From Phascolarctobacterium faecium DSM 14760 (GTDB lineage Bacteria > Bacillota > Negativicutes > Acidaminococcales > Acidaminococcaceae), in assembly GCF_003269275.1 (NCBI RefSeq), contig NZ_QLTS01000004.1:62001-126000 (forward strand): a stretch of 64,000 nucleotides of DNA. Reading direction: 5' to 3'. Positions 18,292 through 62,160 of the stretch are shown piece after piece; positions within the stretch are counted from its first letter, which is position 1, and each line of letters begins with the position of its first letter. The position numbers and the translations under genes were made by a program. The notes under the pieces were generated by a model. It was not told where the DNA came from and did not search any database. It was given only the letters and a program-made list of their open reading frames with translations.

Positions 18292-18367
18292 TGGCAGGGG
18301 CAGTAGGAATCGAACCCACAACCAACGGTTTTGGAGACCGCTACTCTACCAGTTGAGCTATACCCCT
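18292..18367 (-). tRNA. tRNA-Trp (anticodon CCA)
   Basis: A 76-base cloverleaf on the minus strand with a 7-bp acceptor stem, the D-loop AGCTCAACTGGTAGAG, anticodon CCA in GGTCTCCAAAACC, TpsiC GGTTCGATTCC and an encoded CCA end. Third in the cluster after Asp and Gly. Confidence 0.96.
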
Positions 18368-18371
18368 AAAA

Positions 18372-18446
<75 letters not shown>

Positions 18447-18449
18447 AAA

Positions 18450-18526
18450 TGGCGACCCGGATGGGACTCGAACCCACGACCTCCGCCGTGACAGGGCGGC
18501 ATTCTAACCAACTGAACCACCGGGCC
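18450..18526 (-). tRNA. tRNA-Asp (anticodon GTC)
   Basis: A 77-base cloverleaf with anticodon GTC in CCTGTCACG and encoded CCA; first gene of the minus-strand cluster. It is identical to the plus-strand tRNA-Asp at 34864-34940, so the two form an inverted repeat around a 16-kb block. Confidence 0.97.
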
Positions 18527-20336: not shown

Positions 20337-20383
20337 TATAAACGATTTAAGATGTATTATTAAATTAAAATTGAATATTGTAG

Positions 20384-20553
20384 AAAATTGGTGCCAGAGA
20401 TTATAAAATTTCAGCGGCTTAATAGGGAATCCGGTAAAATCCGGAGCTGTCCCGCAACTGTAATGTGGAGCACTGTAATGCGAAACCATTGGACTAGTGT
20501 CTGAGAAGGAATTGCAGTGCGATGAAACAGAGCCAGGAGACCTGCCAGTTTTT
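20384..20553 (+). promoter_or_regulatory. Cobalamin (B12) riboswitch
   Basis: An adenosylcobalamin-type aptamer that normally turns off the gene downstream when cobalamin is plentiful. The conserved parts are clear: an AATAGGGAATCCGGT segment near 20421, the CCGGAGCTGTCCCGCAACTGTAA block ending near 20463, and the 3' core GAGCCAGGAGACCTGCC at 20530-20546. P1 can form between AAAATTGG (20384-20391) and CCAGTTTT (20545-20552). It lies on the same transcript as the TonB-dependent receptor at 20786. Confidence 0.93.
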
Positions 20554-20585
20554 TAATAATCCTTTTATGACTTGCGATGTACGGG

Positions 20586-24676: not shown

Positions 24677-24735
24677 GAGGCTTAAATAATGTCCGGTCGA
24701 TGTGAGAATTTATACATTGATCGGGCATTTTTGTA

Positions 24736-24801
24736 TTGACACTAAAGTTAAAGAGTGTTAAAATGCAATAGAGTTAGCTACAGCTAACTCTATTGCATTT
24801 T
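24736..24801 (+). promoter_or_regulatory. Strong promoter overlapped by a perfect 20+20 palindrome (operator or leader hairpin)
   Basis: TTGACA (24736-24741), 17-base spacer and TAAAAT (24759-24764) form a near-ideal promoter. A perfect inverted repeat, 24760-24779 with 24782-24801, covers the -10 box and the expected start site. Its core GTTAGCTACAGCTAAC is nearly identical to the site at 31039-31054 and resembles DtxR/IdeR-type operators. Because T-rich sequence follows, it could also act as an intrinsic terminator for the preceding gene. It lies 95 bases before the NifH-like gene. Confidence 0.6.
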
Positions 24802-24895
24802 ATTTTATGAATAAAGTTGTTTATATTGATTTAAATATAGAATGTTTTTGGTTGAAAACAGTGAGCTATTTATTTTTAAGGGAGGCAGTTTATTG

Positions 24896-25666
24896 ATGAG
24901 AAAAATTGCGATTTATGGCAAGGGCGGTATTGGCAAGTCTACTACTACTTCAAATTTATCGGCGGCATTGGCGCTTAAAGGTTATAAAGTAATGCAGGTA
25001 GGTTGTGACCCTAAGTCTGATTCAACTAAGAATTTGATGAAGGGGATGCGTATTCCTACTGTTTTAGAACAGCTTAAAGAAAAGGGGGAAGCTTTAGAAT
25101 TAAAAGATATTGTTTTTGAAGGCTTTGGTGGCGTCCTGTGTGTAGAAGCAGGAGGTCCTACACCTGGTATAGGCTGTGCAGGGCGCGGTATTATTTCAGC
25201 TTTTGAAAAGCTGGAGGAGTTGAAGGCTTTTGAAATCTATAAGCCGGATATCGTCATCTATGACGTGCTCGGCGACGTTGTTTGCGGCGGTTTTGCAATG
25301 CCTATCAGGGGTGGTTATGCCAGAGAAGTGTTTATTGTTTCTTCAGGAGAGATGATGGCGCTTTATGCGGCTAATAATATTGCTCAGGCGATCAAAAACT
25401 TTGGACGCAGGGGTTATGCTCGCTTGAAAGGCATTATTTTGAACGCTAAAAATATTGAGAATGAACAGGAACTGGTGGCCAAGACTGCCGCTGAGATTGA
25501 AACCGAGGTCGTAATGTATGTTCCACGTTCGGGAGATATACAAACAGCTGAAAATCAGGGCGGTACGGTTAGCGAATTTGTACAGGCTTCGCCGATGGTC
25601 AAGATCTATCAGGAGTTGGCTGATAAAGTTTTAGAAATGAGTGAAGATACTAAGGGGGATGAATAA
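24896..25666 (+). CDS. NifH/BchL/CfbC-like nitrogenase-type reductase ATPase
   Basis: Homodimeric iron-sulfur ATPase that would deliver low-potential electrons to the NifDK-like partner. Start ATG 24896 follows GGGAGG. The 256-residue protein has the P-loop GKGGIGKST (residues 8-16), switch [12 protein letters not shown] (35-45), and both bridging [4Fe-4S] cysteines: Cys94 in PGIGCAGRG and Cys130 in [26 protein letters not shown] near residue 151 is family-typical. It is shorter than NifH (~290), closer to CfbC. First gene of an operon with ABC-importer genes and NifD/NifK-like genes. No nifB, nifE or nifN is nearby, so a role in nitrogen fixation is unlikely. Confidence 0.9.
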
Positions 25667-26661
25667 TGAAAAATAAATTGTTGCTGTTGGCAGTAGTCGT
25701 TATAGTAGGTGCGCTTTTGTATTATTGCTTTAATACAGGCAATAAAAGTGAAGATGTGTCGGCTGCTGCCGGTGAAACTTATAAACTTGAGTATACACCT
25801 ACGCTGCAGGCTTATGGTTTTACTGAACCGGTTATTTTAAAAGCAAAGCCTCAGCGAGTCGTATCTTTAGTGCATACTCCGGTTTTGGCACTGTATGAGA
25901 TGGGTATTAAACAGGTTGCTGTGCCCCAGGCGGCGATGCTGGAATGGCCTGCAGATTTGGTGAAGGATGCAAAGCTGCTGAATGTGTCGATGAATTCTAA
26001 TTTTGATATCGAATCAGTTATTGCTTTGGAACCAGATCTGGTGATAGTAGGTTATCAGTCTAAGGATACTTATGGGAAAATTCTGGATCGTGAAAAAATA
26101 CCTGTTTATTATGTTGATGCCGGGCATGTTGTATCTTATGAGTCGATCAAGGAATTGACTGACGTACTGATCAAAGCCTTTGGTCAACATAATGCAGGTG
26201 CTGAAGCTATTACGGACAGGTTCAACAAATTGGAAGCCAGAATGGCCGAAAAAAGACAGGAAAATAAAGGGCAAAAAGTTATGGTGCTGCAATCAGCCCC
26301 GCCGCGTCATTATATACAGGGTAAAGATGGGACTTTAGGCAGTATGCTGGATATGCTGGGGTACGAAAATGTGTATCAGAACAATAAGATGGTATTGATT
26401 GATCTGGAGCAGGCTTTATCTTACGAACCGGATTTACTGTTTTGTGTAGGCGGTTCTAAAACTGCGGCAGAGCATCAGCAGGTAATGGAAGAGGATTTTG
26501 CCAAAAACCCTGAATACTGGAACAATATTAAGGCGATACGCGAACATGAGGTTATTTATCTGCCGATAAAATATGTTGCGACAGCCGGGATCAATGTTAT
26601 TGATAATATAAATGAATTGATCGATATTATTGATGCGAAGAAGCTGAAACAAAATGGGTAA
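25666..26661 (+). CDS. Membrane-anchored BtuF/FhuD-like substrate-binding protein
   Basis: Second periplasmic binding protein of the cluster. The 331-residue product has one N-terminal membrane segment (residues ~4-21) ending in LLYYC, which is not a clean lipobox, so it may be a membrane anchor rather than a lipoprotein. The binding-protein fold shows in KAKPQRVVSLVHTPVLALYEMG near residue 64, LEPDLVIVGYQS near 123 and YEPDLLFCVGGSK near 248. Its ATG overlaps the stop of the NifH-like gene by one base and its own end overlaps the permease by eight bases, so the reductase and importer are co-translated. Confidence 0.85.
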   Translation: MKNKLLLLAVVVIVGALLYYCFNTGNKSEDVSAAAGETYKLEYTPTLQAYGFTEPVILKAKPQRVVSLVHTPVLALYEMGIKQVAVPQAAMLEWPADLVKDAKLLNVSMNSNFDIESVIALEPDLVIVGYQSKDTYGKILDREKIPVYYVDAGHVVSYESIKELTDVLIKAFGQHNAGAEAITDRFNKLEARMAEKRQENKGQKVMVLQSAPPRHYIQGKDGTLGSMLDMLGYENVYQNNKMVLIDLEQALSYEPDLLFCVGGSKTAAEHQQVMEEDFAKNPEYWNNIKAIREHEVIYLPIKYVATAGINVIDNINELIDIIDAKKLKQNG

Positions 26662-27658
26662 AGAAGTAAATGTCCTGCGGGTAAGTATGGTTTGCCTGGT
26701 TTTAGTGGCAGTATTATTATTGCTGGCTGTTGTTGCGCTGGGAGTTGGTAGTGCCGGGTATTCGCTGCAGCAGATCATACAGGCTCTTTTTTATGATGAA
26801 AGCGGACCGGTGAGGGTAGTTGTTTATAATTTGCGGTTACCGCGTCTGATTATGGCAGTCGAAGTAGGGGCCTGCCTTGCTGTTGCAGGTGCTCTTTTGC
26901 AGGCTGTCATGCGTAACCCTCTGGCTGATCCTGGGATTATAGGCGTCTCTGCCGGTGCGGCTACTGCGGCAACGACGATTCTACTGTTGTTTCCGACTTT
27001 GGTTTCATCAGTGCCGCTTTTTGCTTTTGGCGGTGCGGCATTGGCCTGTGTACTTATTTATTTGCTGGCCTGGCGCGATGGGATTGATACTGTCAGAATA
27101 ATTTTGTCCGGTGTTGCGATAAATACGGTTTTGGGAGCGTATAACTCCTTTTTGCAATTATTGAATTCTGATAATCTTTCCAGTGTTTTATCTTTTATGA
27201 ACGGCAGTCTTTCGGGACGTTCCTGGGATCATGTTTATATCATTACGGTGTATTCTTTTATTGGTCTTGTTTTAGGCGTATGCTGTATAAAAAATGCCAA
27301 CATTTTGCAGCTGGGTGACGAAATGGCTCAAAGCCTGGGTGTAAATGTAACTTTTGTACGTATCTTTTTATCTGCGGTGGCTGCTTTTTTGGCAGCTGCG
27401 ACGGTAGCAGAGGCCGGTATGATCGGTTTTGTAGGGCTGGTTGTCCCGCATATTGCGAGAATGATGGTTGGCTCCGACTATAAAGCACTGCTGCCGGTGA
27501 GTATGCTTTTGGGTGCGGTGATTCTTCTGGCGGCAGATACTTTGGGGAGGACACTTATACCTGGGATGGAGATACCTGTAGGTATTGTTATGGCAGTTAC
27601 CGGCGGACCGTTTTTCTTGTATATGTTAAGAAAGAAGGGCAAAGTAAGTGGAAGTTAA
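26654..27658 (+). CDS. FecCD/BtuC-type ABC importer permease
   Basis: Inner-membrane channel subunit of a type II importer for iron chelates, haem or cobalamin. The 334-residue protein is very hydrophobic, with about ten membrane helices. It has the family motifs RLPRLIMAVEVGACLAVAGALLQ (residues 55-77), NPLADPGIIGVSAGA near 86 and GFVGLVVPHIARMMVG near 258, where the coupling helix contacts the ATPase. It overlaps both neighbours. One permease serves two binding proteins here, unless one of them pairs with a transporter elsewhere. Confidence 0.93.
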   Translation: MGKEVNVLRVSMVCLVLVAVLLLLAVVALGVGSAGYSLQQIIQALFYDESGPVRVVVYNLRLPRLIMAVEVGACLAVAGALLQAVMRNPLADPGIIGVSAGAATAATTILLLFPTLVSSVPLFAFGGAALACVLIYLLAWRDGIDTVRIILSGVAINTVLGAYNSFLQLLNSDNLSSVLSFMNGSLSGRSWDHVYIITVYSFIGLVLGVCCIKNANILQLGDEMAQSLGVNVTFVRIFLSAVAAFLAAATVAEAGMIGFVGLVVPHIARMMVGSDYKALLPVSMLLGAVILLAADTLGRTLIPGMEIPVGIVMAVTGGPFFLYMLRKKGKVSGS

Positions 27659-28427
27659 GGGTGAAAAATTAGAGATCGGTTACGATGGGCGTATTGTAGT
27701 CAGGGAAATGGATATTACTGTAAAAAAAGGTGAGATCACGACTATCGTCGGCCCTAACGGTTCAGGTAAATCTACTCTGCTGAAAGCGCTGACACGATTG
27801 CTGCGCTGTAGTATGGGCTGCGTCTATCTGAATCAGGAGGATCTGTACAATATCGACAGTAAAAAACTTGCCAAATGTATTGGTGTTTTGCCGCAGCGCC
27901 ATTGCGCACCTCCTGATTTTAAAGTCAGAGATTTAGTAGGTTATGGGCGCGTACCCTATCAGAAGTGGTACGAACATAATACGGAAGAAGATGAAAAGAT
28001 AATAGAGTGGGCCTTGAAAGCAACAGGTACCTGGGCTCTGCGGGATAAATCTATTCAGGAATGCTCGGGCGGGGAATCGCAGCGGGTATGGATAGCTACC
28101 GTATTGGCGCAGCAGCCGGAAATTTTGTTTTTGGATGAGCCGACTACATATTTGGACATTGCGCATCAGCAGGAAACGATGAAACTTGTAAAAAGGCTGA
28201 ACCATGAGGCGGGGATCGGCGTAGTGATGGTCCTGCACGATTTAAGTCATGCGCTGGAGATCAGTGACCGGATCATAGTTTTGAAAAATGGCTGTAAGTA
28301 TGGTGAAGGTCGTCCGCAGGATATTATCACACCTAAAATGATGCGTGAGGTTTACGACGTAGATTGTGATGTAGTGCAGATTCCTGGGCGTAAGAAGCCT
28401 TTAATTATGTTTAAAGAAATAAGTTGA
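27648..28427 (+). CDS. FecE/BtuD-type ABC importer ATPase
   Basis: ATPase subunit of the importer. The 259-residue protein has Walker A GPNGSGKST (about 35-43), the Q-loop in GVLPQRH, the signature CSGGESQRV near residue 139 (ESQ instead of the common QQQ/QRQ), Walker B ILFLDEP near 160 and the H-loop VLHDL near 197. Translation starts at GTG 27648 inside the permease gene, with GAAGGG upstream. The stop lies 15 bases before the NifD-like gene. Confidence 0.93.
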   Translation: MEVKGEKLEIGYDGRIVVREMDITVKKGEITTIVGPNGSGKSTLLKALTRLLRCSMGCVYLNQEDLYNIDSKKLAKCIGVLPQRHCAPPDFKVRDLVGYGRVPYQKWYEHNTEEDEKIIEWALKATGTWALRDKSIQECSGGESQRVWIATVLAQQPEILFLDEPTTYLDIAHQQETMKLVKRLNHEAGIGVVMVLHDLSHALEISDRIIVLKNGCKYGEGRPQDIITPKMMREVYDVDCDVVQIPGRKKPLIMFKEIS

Positions 28428-28442: not shown

Positions 28443-29744
28443 ATGGCGATGGATGGAAAAGAGCTGGTTGAAAAACTTGCTAAATTGAGTCAGGTACAAA
28501 GCATTAAAGATATACCACAGCTTACTCATGCTTTGTTCCCGGGGACACACTGTCCTCTGATGGGTGCGGCTATGGCTGTTGGTGGCATCAAGGACAGCCT
28601 GATCGTTGTGGTTGGTACGGATGAATGCACTTATTACACTAAAAGTATGACCATACATTCTGAAAAATTTGGGGGCATTGACGGCCGTTGTGTTTCAGTC
28701 GTGTTGGATGACCATGATGTAACCTTTGGCAGTGCGGAAAAGGTACAGGAAGCTTTTAAAGAAATAATTGAAGAATATCGCCCCCAATGTGTATTTTTGG
28801 TAACTACCTGTGTCATTGAAATAATTGGTGATGACTTTGACGCTATTTCAGAAGGTCTCAGTGAGCTTTATGGTATTCCGGTGCTGCCGGTTCATACTGA
28901 GCATTTTAAATGTGAGGACCATTTGCCTGGTCTGGAACGAACGATTACTGTTTGTGCTGAAATGATGAAATCGTGTGATAGTGACAACAGTGTCAATTTG
29001 CTGGGGCAGAGAATGGGTGATTTTGCAACGACGGAGCTTTATGCCATGCTGCAGAAAGCCGGCGTAAAAATCGGTTTGCAGCTGCCATGCGGCTGTTCGG
29101 TAGACGATATAAAAAATGCTGCTGCAGCGAAAGTGAATATTGTCGTTAATGATATTGCGCTGCCGCTGGCCCAAAAGATGCAGGAAAAATTTGGTATTCC
29201 TTACGTTTACTTTAATAAATTTGTTATTCCCGAAAAAATCTATGAAGCCTATAAAAATCTTTTTGGGTATTTAGAGCTGGAACTGCCGGGAGAATTGGAA
29301 GGACTTTATCAAAACGCAAGAGAGAAAATCGAAAAAAACAAGGGTGAATTGGAGGGTATTACTTATATTTACGGGAATACGCCGTATGCAGTTTTTGAAA
29401 TGAACTGTTTCCTCAGTTCCCTGGGAATGGTGCCTCAGGTGATTCAAACCAACAGATATACAGAAGCAGATGAACCTTATGCAAAAGAAATATTGCAGTA
29501 TACAGACCCTTATGTTTGCAAAGCGGCTAATATCGCGCCGCTGCAATATGTGTATGATGTATTGTCTCCTTATTTATATTTGGGACATGAGTTTGGCAAC
29601 AGGCTGCGTCAAAAAGGTATTGCCATTGTTCACAGCGACAGAGCGAGTGGCATGCTGGGTTTTGAAGTTACAGGATATTTACTGCAGCAGTTAGTCAAGT
29701 CTGTTAGGGAAGCCAAAGAATATAGAAAGGAGCTGGGCTTATGA
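28443..29744 (+). CDS. NifD/BchN-like nitrogenase-type catalytic subunit
   Basis: The 433-residue product belongs to the nitrogenase component 1 superfamily. Three cysteines fall where NifD/BchN bind their iron-sulfur cluster: Cys37 in GTHCPLM, Cys62 in GTDECTYY and Cys123 in TTCVIEIIGDD. The FeMo-cofactor ligands of NifD appear absent: the Cys275 region aligns to NIVVNDIALPLAQ and the His442 region to a sequence without the histidine (SDRASGMLGFEVTGY). This fits DPOR- or CfbD-like enzymes holding a [4Fe-4S] cluster rather than nitrogenase. RBS AAAGGAG. It overlaps the NifK-like gene by four bases. The substrate is unknown; the importer context suggests a tetrapyrrole or metal chelate. Confidence 0.85.
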   Translation: MAMDGKELVEKLAKLSQVQSIKDIPQLTHALFPGTHCPLMGAAMAVGGIKDSLIVVVGTDECTYYTKSMTIHSEKFGGIDGRCVSVVLDDHDVTFGSAEKVQEAFKEIIEEYRPQCVFLVTTCVIEIIGDDFDAISEGLSELYGIPVLPVHTEHFKCEDHLPGLERTITVCAEMMKSCDSDNSVNLLGQRMGDFATTELYAMLQKAGVKIGLQLPCGCSVDDIKNAAAAKVNIVVNDIALPLAQKMQEKFGIPYVYFNKFVIPEKIYEAYKNLFGYLELELPGELEGLYQNAREKIEKNKGELEGITYIYGNTPYAVFEMNCFLSSLGMVPQVIQTNRYTEADEPYAKEILQYTDPYVCKAANIAPLQYVYDVLSPYLYLGHEFGNRLRQKGIAIVHSDRASGMLGFEVTGYLLQQLVKSVREAKEYRKELGL

Positions 29745-30976
29745 GTTTATGCAGATATTTGCCTGTTCCGTCAGATAGAATGGGTATCATTTGGAGTTTG
29801 CTCAGCGTAAAAGACAGCATCATTCTTGAATATGGCCCGGCCGGGACAACTCATTTTAGTATGGGCTTTTATGGAACTTTAGGAGTAGACTGGCAGCATA
29901 GGCTGTTTACAACACATATGAACGAAGACGATGTGGTCATGGGCGATGTTACCCGTTTGGAAGAAGCTATTGTCGAATTGGATAAAAGCTATGAACCAAA
30001 AGTTATTTTTGTCGTGGCATCTTCTATTTCCGCAGTTATTGGTACTGATATAAAAGGCGTTTGTAATTATATGCAGAAAGAAGTTCAGGCTAAGCTGGTT
30101 GCATTTGAGCAGGGCGGATTTAGGGGTGATTACAGCATAGGTCTGACTGAAGTTTATAAATTGCTGGTCAATAATCTTCCATGTAAAGAACAGAAAAAGA
30201 GAAAGAAAGTGTTTAATATTATTGGCGCGTCAATGGGCAGTTATCGTGCCGCATCGGATGTCTGGGAGCTGCAGAACTTGATACGTGAAGCCTTTGGTTA
30301 TGAATTGCATACCTGCCTGTGCCACGAAACATCTGTTGATGAAATCGGTGATATCGGAACAGCTGAAATAAATTTGGTAATGCGTCAGGAAGGTTTACCG
30401 GCAGCAGAAGTGCTGAAAAATAAATTTGATATGCCATTTGTTGTCAGTGCTCCTTACGGTTATGCAGCAACTTTAACATGGTTGGAAGAAGTCGGTAAAA
30501 TTCTGGGACAGCTACCTGACGTTAAAATGTGCGCCAGATTACGTCTTAAAGCACAGAATACAGCGTCTTTAAAAATGTATGCTATGATGATGGGCAGAAA
30601 AAAAACACCTCAGGCAGCTGTGATCGGCGAGTATGACCTGGTTAAAGGGTTGAGTGCTTTTCTTCGGTCTGTAGGGATCGATGTTAAGTATAAACTTTGC
30701 AGCCATTCTTTAAAAAGTATCGTTGAGCCTGAGTTGGATATTCAGTATATATCTGTGGAAAAAGAAAAAATTGATATATTAAAAAAAATGCAGAAGACAC
30801 TTGTTCTGGCAGACGATGTTTCGCACAGGCTTTGTGATAGCAGTAATGTCGTAGTGAGAGTAAGCGCTCCTTTTATTGACGGAGCCCAGATAGCGACACA
30901 TTTGCCGTTGCTTGGCGAAAAGGGGACAGATTTCTTACTGGAAACTATCGAAGCATATTATCAGACTTTAGCTTAA
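29741..30976 (+). CDS. NifK/BchB-like nitrogenase-type subunit lacking cluster cysteines
   Basis: The 411-residue partner of the NifD-like protein. Superfamily features are clear: EYGPAGTTHFSMG near residue 30, THMNEDDVVMGD near 58 and FVVASSISAVIGTDI near 99. At the three positions where NifK has cysteines, it has Thr36 (GPAGT), a non-cysteine before THMNEDD, and Ser (ASSIS). In BchB the first of these is the aspartate that completes the cluster; here it is threonine. The cluster would therefore be held mainly by the NifD-like chain, with the fourth ligand unknown. Start ATG overlaps the previous stop (ATGA). Last gene of the operon. Confidence 0.83.
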   Translation: MSLCRYLPVPSDRMGIIWSLLSVKDSIILEYGPAGTTHFSMGFYGTLGVDWQHRLFTTHMNEDDVVMGDVTRLEEAIVELDKSYEPKVIFVVASSISAVIGTDIKGVCNYMQKEVQAKLVAFEQGGFRGDYSIGLTEVYKLLVNNLPCKEQKKRKKVFNIIGASMGSYRAASDVWELQNLIREAFGYELHTCLCHETSVDEIGDIGTAEINLVMRQEGLPAAEVLKNKFDMPFVVSAPYGYAATLTWLEEVGKILGQLPDVKMCARLRLKAQNTASLKMYAMMMGRKKTPQAAVIGEYDLVKGLSAFLRSVGIDVKYKLCSHSLKSIVEPELDIQYISVEKEKIDILKKMQKTLVLADDVSHRLCDSSNVVVRVSAPFIDGAQIATHLPLLGEKGTDFLLETIEAYYQTLA

Positions 30977-31038: not shown

Positions 31039-31054
31039 GTTAGCTAAGGCTAAC
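31039..31054. promoter_or_regulatory. DtxR-like operator candidate upstream of the ChaN-like gene
   Basis: GTTAGCTAAGGCTAAC agrees at 14 of 16 bases with the palindrome core over the promoter at 24736-24801. It lies 150 bases before the ChaN-like ATG. The rest of the gap 30977-31203 has no gene I can support and no clear promoter; TATAAT-like sequence occurs near 31130. Confidence 0.45.
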
Positions 31055-31203: not shown

Positions 31204-32106
31204 ATGAAACGGTTTTTAAAATTTTTATGCATGTGCCTCATTATGAGTATGGCGGAATCAGCACATGCCGCATTGCCAACAGTAAAAGATACGGTGATTA
31301 TTTCTGCGGCAGACAGAAAAGCCGTTACTCTTGCTGAAATGGCTGAAAACTTTGTTGATTATGATGTAGTTTTTTTTGGTGAATTTCATGATCAGGATGT
31401 ACTGCATGAGCTGGAATATGAAATGCTGCAGCAACTGTATGCCATTCATGGTGACAAGCTTGTTTTGTCACTGGAAATGTTTGAGGCAGATAACCAGTTC
31501 GTTTTAAATGAGTATTTAGCCGGTAGAATTACGGAGGAGGAATTTCTGGCAAAATCGCGTCCCTGGCCAAGATATAAAACAGATTACCGTCAGCTGGTAG
31601 AATTTGCAAAAGCACATAAGCTGCCAGTCTTAGCCAGCAATATACCACGTTTTTTAGCAGCAAAATTGGCGAAAGAGGGAACTTTAGCTGCAGTAGCAGA
31701 GCTGGATAAGCAATATTTACCGGTCAGGACCTATGCGCCTGCAGGAAAGTATAAAGAGAAATTTGCTGCTTATATGACTAAGGGGCAAACACCGATGCGA
31801 ATTCCCCAGGAACGGATAGATCAGGTATTTGCCGCACAGTGCATAAAAGATGACAAGATGGCGGAAAGTATTTTTTATTATTGGCAGGATAATCAGGATA
31901 AGGTAATTTTTCATATCAACGGCTGCTTTCATTCTGACGGACATTTGGGAACTGTCGAAAAATTGGAAGCATTGAATCCGGCGTTAAAAGTAGGTGTAAT
32001 TACGCCTAAAGACATGCCGGAATCTAAAAACTATATGGAAACCTATGCTGATGATAAAAAAGACGGCGAATATATTATTTATTTTCCAAGAGTAGAAAAA
32101 GAATAA
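31204..32106 (+). CDS. ChaN-like haem-binding uptake protein (Tiki superfamily)
   Basis: The ChaN family contains iron-regulated haem-binding proteins such as Campylobacter ChaN. The 300-residue protein has a signal peptide ending AHA (residue 22) without a lipobox, so it is probably soluble in the periplasm. Conserved family motifs: VVFFGEFHDQ with Glu60 and His62, LVLSLEMFE near residue 87, LPVLASNIPR near 138 and HINGCFHSDGHLGT near 238. It lies just before a TonB-dependent receptor. With the reductase operon upstream, this points to haem or another tetrapyrrole as ligand, although the B12 riboswitch points to corrinoids. Confidence 0.82.
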   Translation: MKRFLKFLCMCLIMSMAESAHAALPTVKDTVIISAADRKAVTLAEMAENFVDYDVVFFGEFHDQDVLHELEYEMLQQLYAIHGDKLVLSLEMFEADNQFVLNEYLAGRITEEEFLAKSRPWPRYKTDYRQLVEFAKAHKLPVLASNIPRFLAAKLAKEGTLAAVAELDKQYLPVRTYAPAGKYKEKFAAYMTKGQTPMRIPQERIDQVFAAQCIKDDKMAESIFYYWQDNQDKVIFHINGCFHSDGHLGTVEKLEALNPALKVGVITPKDMPESKNYMETYADDKKDGEYIIYFPRVEKE

Positions 32107-32125: not shown

Positions 32126-33982
32126 ATGATGAAAATAAAAAACAAACAATTTTTCAACAGGAAAATATTGATGACATTAGTTGTTGGCACAAATGTCATT
32201 TTGGGGGGCACAGCGGTATATGCTGAAGAACCACAGAAATTTACTTTAGATGAATATGTGGTAACTGCTACCCGTACAGAATTGAGCAGAAAAGAAGTTC
32301 CTCAGAGTGTGGAAGTTATAACAAAAGAGGATATCCAGAATATTGGGGCAACCAATGTTATAGATGCCTTACGTACGGCGACTAACATAGAAATACCGGA
32401 AGCTGCGGGTGTAGGGCACACTTTGGGAATCAGAGGCAGCGGGAAAAATGATGTTTTGGTTTTGCTTAACGGGCGTCGTATTCCCGGCGAAGGGTATGGC
32501 CAGGTTTCTACTAATACCTATGTGCTGTCACGGCTGAATGTGAACAATATAGAACGAATCGAAGTGCTTCGCGGGCCATCAGGTGCATTATATGGATCAG
32601 AGGCCTCAGCTGGTGTTATTAATATTATTACGAAAAAATCTGAAAAAAAATCAATGACTGTAGGTGTAGCTACAAATAGCCGTGAAATGAGTAATTATTA
32701 CCATTTTGACAGCGGCAAAGACGGTAAGTTAAGTGCTGCTTTTGATGCTAACTTTACTAAAGTCCGCTATTTTAAATGGGATGATGCCAATATGAGTAAA
32801 TATTTTGGACCGACTCAAAATTATAGCTTGGATGTAGATTATGAAATGGACCAAAACAACAGTTTAAATTTATATCTGAACTATGAGAATACCAATCAGC
32901 AGTTCAAAAAATTTACCAGTGCCAGCGGTCCTTTTTCTTATTTAGGTATATATAATGTAGATAGGAAAAGTGCCAGCCTTACTTATAACGGACAGAATGA
33001 TAACAGTAATTATATGCTAAGCGCAACTTACGGTGAATTAAAAAAAGATGTTACCAGTGCTATGAGCGCAAACAGTGTGGGAAGCTCCAAATTTAATTTT
33101 TGGAATATTGAAGCACGTGATACGATCAAGCTAGACAATAATAATCGTTTGACTTTCGGCGGCGAGTTCAGAACTGACGGTCGCAAAGACAGCAGTATTG
33201 ACGAAAGTTCTGATCAATATTCTTTATTTATACATGACGAATTGAAACTGGGTGAGAAACTACTGCTGATTCCGGCTGTTCGCTATGATCACCATGACAG
33301 CTTTGGCAGCGAGACTTCTCCGAATATTGGCGCGACATATTCCTTTACAGAGGCCTCAAGGCTTAAGGCTAATTATGGAGAAGGTTACAGAGCGCCGTCT
33401 ATTTCAGAATTATATGGTACTTATTCCAATCCGAATCTGCGTCCTGAAAAATCAAAGGGATATGAGTTATCATATGAACAGGAATTTGGCGATGATACTG
33501 CAGTTAAATTAACATATTTCAAAAACAAAAAGACTGATGCCATTGCTATGGATTACAGTTTAGCGCCTAATTATCAATATATGAATATAGAAAAGTCTTC
33601 TTCAGAGGGTGTTGAATTTGAAATCAAGCATGACTTGGGAAATGGTTTTACAGTAATCGGTAATTATGATTATCTGGATGCTATGAATGATAAGACTAAT
33701 ACACGTTTGAATTACAGCGCCCGTAATACTTATACAGCAAAATTGATGTGGACAGAGCCTGTAAAACAGGAATGGAATATTACTGCCTGGAATAAGTGGT
33801 ATTCTGATTATAGGGCAGACAGTGAAGATCACAGTATCAATACGTTTAATTTTGTCGTTAATAAACGCTGGGGCGATAAATATCGTGCTTATGCCGGAAT
33901 CGATAATCTTTTTGATAAAAAGATTACCAGTATGCGTTATTCGGGAAGGTTGTGGCGTGTTGGTGCGGAAATGACCTTCTAA
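32126..33982 (+). CDS. TonB-dependent outer-membrane receptor, second copy
   Basis: The 618-residue receptor has a signal peptide ending VYA-EEP, a TonB box region EYVVTATR, a plug domain with VLVLLNGRRIPGEG and GALYGSEASAGVINIITKK (near residues 110 and 155), and a barrel ending in a phenylalanine (EMTF). It resembles colicin-I/BtuB-type receptors and shares the N-terminal pattern of the receptor at 20786, but it is not a recent duplicate. ATG 32126 or 32129 could be the start; AGGAAGG lies upstream. It follows the ChaN-like gene by 19 bases and ends with a terminator, so the two form one unit. Confidence 0.9.
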   Translation: MMKIKNKQFFNRKILMTLVVGTNVILGGTAVYAEEPQKFTLDEYVVTATRTELSRKEVPQSVEVITKEDIQNIGATNVIDALRTATNIEIPEAAGVGHTLGIRGSGKNDVLVLLNGRRIPGEGYGQVSTNTYVLSRLNVNNIERIEVLRGPSGALYGSEASAGVINIITKKSEKKSMTVGVATNSREMSNYYHFDSGKDGKLSAAFDANFTKVRYFKWDDANMSKYFGPTQNYSLDVDYEMDQNNSLNLYLNYENTNQQFKKFTSASGPFSYLGIYNVDRKSASLTYNGQNDNSNYMLSATYGELKKDVTSAMSANSVGSSKFNFWNIEARDTIKLDNNNRLTFGGEFRTDGRKDSSIDESSDQYSLFIHDELKLGEKLLLIPAVRYDHHDSFGSETSPNIGATYSFTEASRLKANYGEGYRAPSISELYGTYSNPNLRPEKSKGYELSYEQEFGDDTAVKLTYFKNKKTDAIAMDYSLAPNYQYMNIEKSSSEGVEFEIKHDLGNGFTVIGNYDYLDAMNDKTNTRLNYSARNTYTAKLMWTEPVKQEWNITAWNKWYSDYRADSEDHSINTFNFVVNKRWGDKYRAYAGIDNLFDKKITSMRYSGRLWRVGAEMTF

Positions 33983-34863: not shown

Positions 34864-34940
34864 GGCCCGGTGGTTCAGTTGGTTAGAATGCCGCCCTGTC
34901 ACGGCGGAGGTCGTGGGTTCGAGTCCCATCCGGGTCGCCA
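34864..34940 (+). tRNA. tRNA-Asp (anticodon GTC)
   Basis: 77-base cloverleaf, anticodon GTC, encoded CCA. Identical to the minus-strand copy at 18450-18526. Confidence 0.97.
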
Positions 34941-34944
34941 TTTT

Positions 34945-35020
34945 GCCTCGGTAGCTCAGTTGGTAGAGCAAAGGACTGAAAATCCTTGTGTCCACAGTTC
35001 GATTCTGTGCTGAGGCACCA
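34945..35020 (+). tRNA. tRNA-Phe (anticodon GAA)
   Basis: 76-base cloverleaf with acceptor GCCTCGG/CTGAGGC, anticodon GAA in GGACTGAAAATCC, and an encoded CCA. Confidence 0.96.
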
Positions 35021-35025
35021 TTTAT

Positions 35026-35100
<75 letters not shown>

Positions 35101-35105
35101 GTTAA

Positions 35106-35179
35106 GGCGACATAGCCAAGCGGTAAGGCAGAGGTCTGCAAAACCTTTATCCCCAGTTCGATTCTGGGTGTCGCCTCCA
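35106..35179 (+). tRNA. tRNA-Cys (anticodon GCA)
   Basis: 74-base cloverleaf with acceptor GGCGACA/TGTCGCC, anticodon GCA in GGTCTGCAAAACC, U discriminator and encoded CCA. Confidence 0.96.
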
Positions 35180-35185
35180 CTTTTT

Positions 35186-35274
35186 GCCGGGGTGGCGGAA
35201 CTGGCAGACGCAAGGGACTTAAAATCCCTCGGGGAGTGATCCCCGTACCGGTTCGATTCCGGTCCTCGGCACCA
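35186..35274 (+). tRNA. tRNA-Leu (anticodon TAA)
   Basis: 89-base tRNA with a long variable arm (CTCGGGGAGTGATCCCCGT), as expected for leucine; anticodon TAA in GGACTTAAAATCC; encoded CCA. Confidence 0.96.
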
Positions 35275-61329: not shown

Positions 61330-62160
61330 ATGCAGGACGTAATACTTTTAACTGGTGCCGGACAAATTGGCCTGGCGATCGCCAGAAGAATGGGTCATGG
61401 TAAAAAAATTGTAGTTAGTGATAAAAATATAAACAACGCCCAAACCGTAACTAAAATAATGGCTGAGGCCGGATTTGACGCTGTAGCGGTAGAAGCGGAT
61501 ATTTCCTCGCGCAAATCAATTTTAAATATGATAGCTGCAGCGCAGAAATATGGTGAGATCGCAATGCTTATCAATGCTGCCGGGGTTTCACCCAGTCAGG
61601 CCTCTGTCGAAACTATTTTAAAAGTGGATCTATACGGTACAGCAGTTTTGTTGGAAGAAGTAGGAAAAGTGATCAAAGCTGGTGGTACTGGTGTTACGAT
61701 ATCCAGCCAGTCTGGGCACAGAATGGCTGCCTTAGGTGCGGAAACAGACGAACAGCTTGCTGTTACACCGGCAGAAGAACTGCTGCAGCTGGAAGTATTA
61801 AAGCCGGCCAATATCAAAGACACACTGCATGCGTATCAAATGGCTAAACGCTGTAATGTAAAACGTGTAATGGCAGAAGCTATCAAATGGGGCGTAAAAG
61901 GTGCGCGTATAAACTCTATCTCGCCCGGCATTATCGTAACGCCGCTTGCGCTTGATGAATTTAACGGCCCCAGAGGAGAGTTTTATAAAAATATGTTTGC
62001 AAAATGCCCGGCAGGCCGCCCCGGAACGGCGGATGAAGTTGCCAACGTAGCCGAATTGCTGCTGAGCCAGCAGGGAGCATTTATCACCGGTGCAGATTTT
62101 TTGATTGATGGCGGCGCAACAGCAGCTTATTTCTATGGACCGTTAAAACCAGATAAGTGA
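61330..62160 (+). CDS. Short-chain dehydrogenase/reductase
   Basis: NAD(P)-dependent oxidoreductase of the classical SDR type. I choose ATG 61330 (276 residues) because GAAAGGAG lies upstream; a TTG at 61324 is too close. TGAGQIG (residues 8-14) binds the cofactor, VSDKNIN near 31 holds the acidic residue that favours NAD, and the catalytic region is VTISSQSGH near 119 with YQMAK near 169. The C-terminal SPGII motif follows. No signal peptide: the only cytosolic enzyme of the operon. It may reduce or oxidise a product brought into the cell. Confidence 0.85.
   Translation: MQDVILLTGAGQIGLAIARRMGHGKKIVVSDKNINNAQTVTKIMAEAGFDAVAVEADISSRKSILNMIAAAQKYGEIAMLINAAGVSPSQASVETILKVDLYGTAVLLEEVGKVIKAGGTGVTISSQSGHRMAALGAETDEQLAVTPAEELLQLEVLKPANIKDTLHAYQMAKRCNVKRVMAEAIKWGVKGARINSISPGIIVTPLALDEFNGPRGEFYKNMFAKCPAGRPGTADEVANVAELLLSQQGAFITGADFLIDGGATAAYFYGPLKPDK

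Follow-up and report, generated by a model that had tools for sequence, protein, structure and literature searches.

A nitrogenase-like protein pair with a predicted three-cysteine cluster site, encoded in an iron-linked uptake operon of Phascolarctobacterium faecium

Enzymes of the nitrogenase-like family whose function is known either fix nitrogen, make tetrapyrroles, or cleave C-S bonds. The gut bacterium Phascolarctobacterium faecium DSM 14760 (genome, 2.3 Mb) encodes two adjacent chains of this family, which we call D and K, within a 64,000-nucleotide stretch of DNA (the window: positions 62,001 to 126,000 of contig NZ_QLTS01000004.1; coordinates are those of the window unless a locus is named). 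The locus raises the question of what kind of cluster such a pair can hold when the recognizable cysteine ligands all lie in one chain, and of what the enzyme, with its NifH-like partner H, would reduce. Our alignments support a predicted [4Fe-4S] site built on three cysteines of D, with a fourth position that is open or occupied by a residue other than cysteine, and not a P-cluster plus iron-molybdenum cofactor (FeMo-cofactor). We regard it as an even call that H, D, and K form a reductase that spends ATP to release the iron of a ferric chelate taken up by the cell, by means of a cluster resembling that of dark-operative protochlorophyllide oxidoreductase (DPOR).

We examined the ligand positions in a joint alignment of D and K with NifD/K/E/N, VnfD/K, BchN/B, BchY/Z, and other nitrogenase-like chains, and assessed conservation over 23 related loci, which comprise six orthologs (the window clade) and 17 loci of a sister clade (Sporomusa type). 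The features concerned are as follows.

28443-29744, + strand: D, nitrogenase-component-1-like subunit carrying the three cluster cysteines (433 aa; PF00148, E 1e-58)
29741-30976, + strand: K, partner subunit, cysteine at no ligand position (411 aa; PF00148, E 5e-61)
28551-28553, + strand: codon of D Cys37, ligand position 1 (alignment and conservation)
28626-28628, + strand: codon of D Cys62, ligand position 2 (alignment and conservation)
28809-28811, + strand: codon of D Cys123, ligand position 3 (alignment and conservation)
29771-29773, + strand: codon of K Ser11, equivalent of the first NifK cysteine, invariant serine (spacing argument)
29846-29848, + strand: codon of K Thr36, equivalent of the second NifK cysteine and of BchB Asp36 (alignment)
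29915-29917, + strand: codon of K His59, invariant (23/23), possible ligand or substrate-site residue
30023-30025, + strand: codon of K Ser95, equivalent of the third NifK cysteine; Ser, Ala, or Thr across loci (alignment)
30062-30064, + strand: codon of K Cys108, invariant cysteine (23/23) off the ligand columns, in helix 104-114

Cysteine occupies three of the three ligand columns in D and none in K. D Cys37, Cys62, and Cys123, which an initial annotation of this DNA had matched to the cluster ligands of NifD and BchN, fall in the columns that hold the ligand cysteines of NifD, NifE, VnfD, and BchN; they are invariant in 15 aligned sequences and across the 23 related loci, barring one row whose called open reading frame (ORF) misses the N-terminus at Cys37. 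K never has cysteine at the three ligand positions of these loci. As annotated, the threonine of GPAG[T] (position 36) aligns with both the NifK ligand cysteine and BchB Asp36, and the serine of FVVAS[S]IS (position 95) falls at the third cysteine. Position 36 is Thr at all six window-clade loci and His at all 17 sister-clade loci, and position 95 varies over the 23. The annotation had placed the remaining K position at the residue before THMNEDD, which is a ligand column in no family. We assign it to Ser11, which the joint alignment misplaces, from the BchB register and from spacing: 25 residues separate Ser11 from Thr36, as they do Pro11 from Asp36 in BchB and Cys37 from Cys62 in D. Position 11 is Ser at 23/23 loci. 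Cys4 of K, in a low-confidence N-terminus, was ruled out as a ligand, because position 4 is Cys, Val, or His across loci and so cannot be a conserved ligand.

The cysteine that binds the FeMo-cofactor is missing from D, in agreement with the initial annotation: the column of NifD Cys275 holds Asn, His, Ser, or Thr in D, versus Cys in every Nif and Vnf D and E chain and every other NflD chain of the set. The best match to NifB in the genome scored 24 bits against a cut-off of 344. Because both the cofactor cysteine and NifB are missing, D/K is not a nitrogenase, and the ligand columns together with the absence of NifB rule out a P-cluster or FeMo-cofactor. The published DPOR cluster is held by three BchN cysteines and BchB Asp36 (PMC12518044), and the D/K site is therefore a DPOR-like variant in which the aspartate has been exchanged; a threonine at this position, or the histidine of the sister clade, is new. 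The earlier prediction is supported in part: alignment, conservation, and the lack of NifB favor a three-cysteine [4Fe-4S] site, with its fourth position open or held by a residue other than cysteine, in place of the nitrogenase metal centers. The fourth ligand may be Thr36, water, His59, or Cys108.

The D genes of some relatives are irregular at the N-terminus. One sister-locus gene (L073 9796-10995) was called without its N-terminus, including Cys37, possibly because of a frameshift, an assembly error, or a wrong start. Only two orthologs (L008 9794-9994 and L010 1-222) have a Met/Ala/Lys-rich N-terminal extension of ~67-75 residues.

AlphaFold2 models of D and K had mean pLDDT (predicted local distance difference test) values of 83.7 and 82.0. 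The nearest fold to K was BchB of DPOR (Z 38.1 over 392 residues, 3.5 A), followed by methylthio-alkane reductase and NifN (Z ~33); BchB was also nearest to D (Z 29.6), tied with nitrogenases and other chains of the nitrogenase family. A tree built from 53 chains places the distinct chains D and K in separate branches, and each forms a clade of its own with a Sporomusa-type sister (100/99 and 100/100), apart from Nif, Vnf, Bch, and other Nfl chains and from a second HDK set in the same genome. We claim no sister family, as the tree leaves its deep branches unresolved and has the Bch chains on long ones. A search with K across 380 genomes of the class found relatives in 17.

The operon order is H (NifH-like)-SBP2-ABC (ATP-binding cassette) permease-ABC ATPase-D-K, and ChaN and TonB receptor genes follow downstream of K on the same strand.

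24736-24764, + strand: H..K promoter TTGACA-17-TAAAAT, sigma-70-like (11/12 consensus bases)
24773-24788, + strand: operator GTTAGCTACAGCTAAC, directly 3' of the -10 hexamer and upstream of H (exact match)
24896-25666, + strand: H, NifH/CfbC-like ATP-dependent reductase (PF00142, E 2e-98; longest ORF from 24842)
25666-26661, + strand: SBP2, periplasmic binding protein of IsdE/siderophore type (PF01497, E 3e-25)
26654-27658, + strand: ABC permease, FecCD/BtuC type
27648-28427, + strand: ABC ATPase, FecE type
31039-31054, + strand: second operator GTTAGCTAAGGCTAAC, upstream of ChaN (exact match)
31204-32106, + strand: ChaN-type haem-binding uptake protein (PF04187, E 4e-54)
32126-33982, + strand: TonB-dependent receptor, BtuB/hemin-like, below every cut-off

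The domain models PF00148 (D and K) and PF00142 (H) were matched above their gathering scores. H, in its 256-aa form starting at the ATG at 24896, has a Walker motif and the cluster cysteines Cys94 and Cys130; it scored 342.6 bits with the CfbC model (cut-off 402) and 338.6 bits with the NifH model, below both cut-offs. The top NCBIfam match of SBP2 was IsdE (86 bits, below cut-off), and its matches in the PDB are iron-chelate binders. Genes for FecCDE-type ABC importers accompany HDK at 21 of the 23 related loci, the other two being on contigs cut at D. The promoter match is weak alone, with about one expected by chance.

As classic Fur boxes in the window did not exceed chance, we searched for the motif GTTAGCN4GCTAAC. 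Exact matches in the window numbered two, versus an average of 0.025 in shuffled windows, and with at most one mismatch there were 18 sites in the genome, versus 0 for a reversed-pattern control. Such sites lie upstream of feoA-feoB, of genes for superoxide dismutase and a ferritin-like protein, and of AhpC, flavodoxins, exbB-exbD-tonB, and HutW with a flavodoxin; desulfoferrodoxin and binding protein/TonB receptor pairs also neighbor sites. At the HutW locus (L138 2594-4683; G000:C8), the flavodoxin gene and a gene for a HutW-type anaerobic haem-degrading radical S-adenosylmethionine (SAM) protein (TIGR04107, 429 bits against a cut-off of 400) lie beside the operator site. No obvious iron gene lies beside the sites L132, L136, L137, and L141. 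Judged by their neighbors, the GTTAGCN4GCTAAC sites make up a predicted iron regulon, and the HDK operon and the ChaN-TonB receptor pair belong to it.

Operator sites, some with one or two mismatches, were present at all five orthologous HDK loci that include upstream sequence. At L006 and L007, an ExbB-ExbD-TonB-H-SBP-permease-ATPase-D-K unit has two sites upstream of it, and in relatives sites are also found upstream of HutW and of an ABC exporter adjoining the locus. The motif is weaker in two relatives of another genus, because the genome-wide count is not clearly above the control (2 versus 8 in G033; 4 versus 1 in G016). The operator at 24773-24788 itself forms the center of a 20-pair hairpin (24759-24802), which has a terminator-like score as well.

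Loci of the sister clade, whose K chains are 31-36% identical to that of the window, also point to iron uptake. At 16 of the 17 loci the HDK set has a FecCDE-type importer next to it, and the remaining locus is cut by a contig end. Fur-box-like sites numbered 29 at these loci versus 2.3 expected, and 25 of the 29 are intergenic; eight loci with Nif or other Nfl genes, used as controls, gave none. At L071 and L074, an overlapping pair of such sites lies 173-179 bases before H. Both of the sister-clade receptors tested exceeded the siderophore-receptor cut-off of 223.5 bits (342 and 363 bits), and in a plasmid record of Sporomusa termitida the neighbors are annotated as an iron ABC permease and a siderophore receptor. 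L069 adjoins a nonribosomal peptide synthetase (NRPS) whose best models are MxcG/EntF (954 and 775 bits, both below cut-off). At L066 and L076, a PF00756 esterase gene lies directly 3' of K, and the L076 esterase, the only one tested, gave enterochelin esterase as its best named model, with a weak score of 32 bits.

Genes for the NRPS, a major facilitator superfamily exporter, a type II thioesterase, and an amidohydrolase run towards the HDK genes at L069 470-8189, which is likely a siderophore biosynthesis cluster. At L066 4999-6792, two genes past K, there is a TauA/SsuA-like binding protein with a permease, a transporter type unlike FecCDE.

NifH-type donors can push low-potential electrons by spending ATP, and ferric catecholates have reduction potentials far below that of NAD(P)H. 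These two properties, and the fact that an imported ferric chelate and iron control are common to both clades, led us to favor ATP-driven reduction of chelated iron. A ferric chelate would be taken in via a TonB receptor and via the operon's own binding protein and FecCDE-type ABC importer. Once it is in the cytoplasm, the H dimer would accept a low-potential electron, for which flavodoxin is a plausible donor because flavodoxin genes share the operator. H would then hydrolyze ATP and reduce a [4Fe-4S] cluster lying between D and K. The ligands of this cluster would be D Cys37, Cys62, and Cys123 and a fourth, which may be weak, exchangeable, or absent, at K position 36 (Thr in the window's K, His in the sister-clade chains). 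From the cluster the electron would move to the Fe(III) of a chelate bound adjacently, and Fe(II) would be released. Put in its broader form, the proposal is that a new nitrogenase-like clade serves as a dedicated ATP-driven ferric-chelate reductase, with a three-cysteine [4Fe-4S] cluster and Thr or His at the fourth position, that obtains iron from catecholate siderophores or haem poorly reducible by ordinary donors; to this we give slightly less than even credence. Cluster type, fourth ligand, substrate, and reduction are all features that we infer.

Several points weigh against this proposal. The placement of the D/K cluster site rests on alignment, and the ferric-chelate substrate is deduced from the genomic setting. 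Iron regulation also fits enzymes that modify chelators or that replace an iron-costly enzyme. The window's receptors and binding proteins score below the siderophore cut-off, and a haem-binding ChaN protein is encoded 3' of K. With respect to regulation, no classic Fur box in the window stands above chance and none lies upstream of the operon; the genome encodes three Fur-type proteins and one DtxR-type protein, which are candidate regulators of the operator; and, given the terminator-like score, the site at 24773-24788 may be an operator, an attenuator, or both.

The substrate could instead be an imported iron tetrapyrrole (haem or a relative), reduced at the iron or the ring for anaerobic iron removal. 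We judge this rather unlikely, but for the clade of the window it is the chief alternative, given the ChaN protein and BtuB/hemin-like receptor encoded 3' of K (ChaN is found again in L007). DPOR, the best characterized three-cysteine-plus-one relative, acts on a tetrapyrrole, as do chlorophyllide oxidoreductase and CfbCD; the fold of K is nearest BchB, and the best named family for SBP2, albeit below its cut-off, is the haem-binding IsdE. However, ChaN occurs at two of the five orthologous loci whose sequence extends beyond K, the same HDK set lies in siderophore loci in the sister clade, the genome has a separate iron-regulated haem route (HutW and flavodoxin), and K stops at 411 aa, whereas BchB exceeds 500.

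A rival to the open fourth site, as opposed to the substrate, is an ordinary four-ligand cluster completed by a conserved K residue off the classical columns. Cys108 and His59 are both invariant (23/23 loci), but we consider such a cluster improbable: Cys108 is 13 residues past the third ligand column, inside helix 104-114, and its column likewise holds Cys in chains (NifE, VnfN, and L095) with cysteine ligands of their own, and His59 is one residue past the conserved Thr of a loop that holds no ligand in known relatives.

Corrinoid uptake or reduction has a smaller chance still of being the function of H, D, and K. The suggestion comes from the operon just upstream, TonB1-TIM-SBP1, which is controlled by a cobalamin riboswitch, and from the second HDK set of the genome, which includes a CobN-like protein and is also riboswitch-controlled.

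20372-20563, + strand: cobalamin riboswitch of the TonB1-TIM-SBP1 operon (RF00174, 108.8 bits, E 2.5e-26)
24688-24729, + strand: terminator-like hairpin 3' of SBP1 (17-pair stem, 0.0 expected in shuffles)

The hairpin divides the riboswitch operon from the H..K operon. We set a cobalamin function aside because the hairpin, a separate promoter, and the iron operator intervene between SBP1 and H, and because the riboswitch was found in no orthologous or sister locus tested; the second HDK set, moreover, lies in a different clade. Least probable of all is a small-molecule reductase unrelated to iron supply, of the methylthio-alkane or isethionate reductase kind, which belongs to the same superfamily but is at odds with the lack of the cofactor cysteine and NifB, with an operon in which no sulfur genes were seen, and with the iron operator and FecCDE importer at these loci.

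Matches in the PDB were also used to seek a haem-ligand assignment in SBP2 and SBP1, and were not decisive. The second HDK set (G000:C11; L005 8623-17069 and L098 1593-17114) has six ligand cysteines and is accompanied by a CobN-like chelatase of 1238 aa, ChlI- and ChlD-like AAA proteins, a radical SAM protein, a TonB receptor, and three cobalamin riboswitches; it is a candidate for a corrinoid or cobalt system that includes an enzyme of the nitrogenase-like family. Like the window's set it lies beside a FecCD-type ABC importer, but it differs in keeping all six ligand cysteines, in its CobN/chelatase genes, and in its separate clade. The TIM-barrel protein of TonB1-TIM-SBP1 and its partners resemble genes near second-type HDK sets in relatives. 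A third type of pair in relatives (L087 8737-12253 and L086 12939-15917) adjoins a radical SAM protein resembling NifB. In L087 three ligand cysteines lie in the K-like chain and one in the D-like chain, which mirrors the arrangement in the window; for L086 the alignment covered the K-like chain alone, the D-like ORF being N-terminally incomplete. Two tRNA arrays in opposite orientation (18295-18526, - strand; 34864-35271, + strand) flank the cobalamin/iron stretch, and two pairs of their members score identically in Rfam (73.4 and 66.1), which suggests that an array was duplicated and inverted.

If ATP-driven ferric-chelate reduction is correct, a branch of the nitrogenase-like family built into iron-chelate uptake would have a new physiological role, and it would explain how strict anaerobes obtain iron from chelates whose potential lies below that of the usual electron donors. 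We recognized no literature linking a nitrogenase-like enzyme to siderophores by title or abstract, within a coverage that extended to neither subscription journals nor preprints. The exchange of Thr and His at the DPOR aspartate position amounts to an experiment of nature on the tuning of electron transfer by the fourth ligand, and the HDK genes are few, clearly regulated, and found in cultivable Sporomusa species. The iron and siderophore context makes the case more interesting than the asymmetry of the site alone, and supplies the candidate function that the initial annotation lacked.

Among known systems, HmuS, a haem de-chelatase, resembles the proposed enzyme in that it anaerobically releases Fe(II) from an imported chelate and requires a reductant (PMC12583661); HmuS, however, is CobN-like, NADH-dependent, and without nitrogenase-like subunits. 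Methylthio-alkane reductase, MarHDK, is nitrogenase-like and of Group IV type, as is HDK, but it contains both a P-cluster and an Fe8S9C cluster and relies on a NifB-like maturase (PMC12552129), and the corresponding ligands and NifB are missing from the window's system. CfbCD, of coenzyme F430 biosynthesis, resembles HDK in that CfbC is the top model for H, but H falls below the CfbC cut-off, and CfbD is a homodimer, whereas D and K are distinct chains.

In isethionate reductase, IsrHDK, which is likewise nitrogenase-like, the cluster cysteines are also unevenly spread, with one in D and three in K (PMC11423573). This mirrors the D/K pattern, and Isr is linked with a radical SAM protein and with the transport of sulfonates. 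DPOR (BchL with BchNB) differs from HDK in several respects: Asp36 is replaced by Thr in the window's K and by His in the sister clade, K lacks the C-terminal part of BchB, D and K fall outside the BchNB branch, and HDK belongs to an iron regulon. D and K also score below the cut-offs of the DPOR family models (D, 49.6 of 420 bits for BchN; K, 97 of 490 bits for BchB), and no chlorophyll-synthesis genes were seen near D/K. Nevertheless, DPOR and HDK share an ATP-dependent NifH-like donor, a D/K-type acceptor, three cysteines in one chain, and a residue other than cysteine at position 36 of the other. The three-cysteine-plus-one arrangement thus has precedent, in DPOR as the same scheme and in IsrDK as its mirror image.

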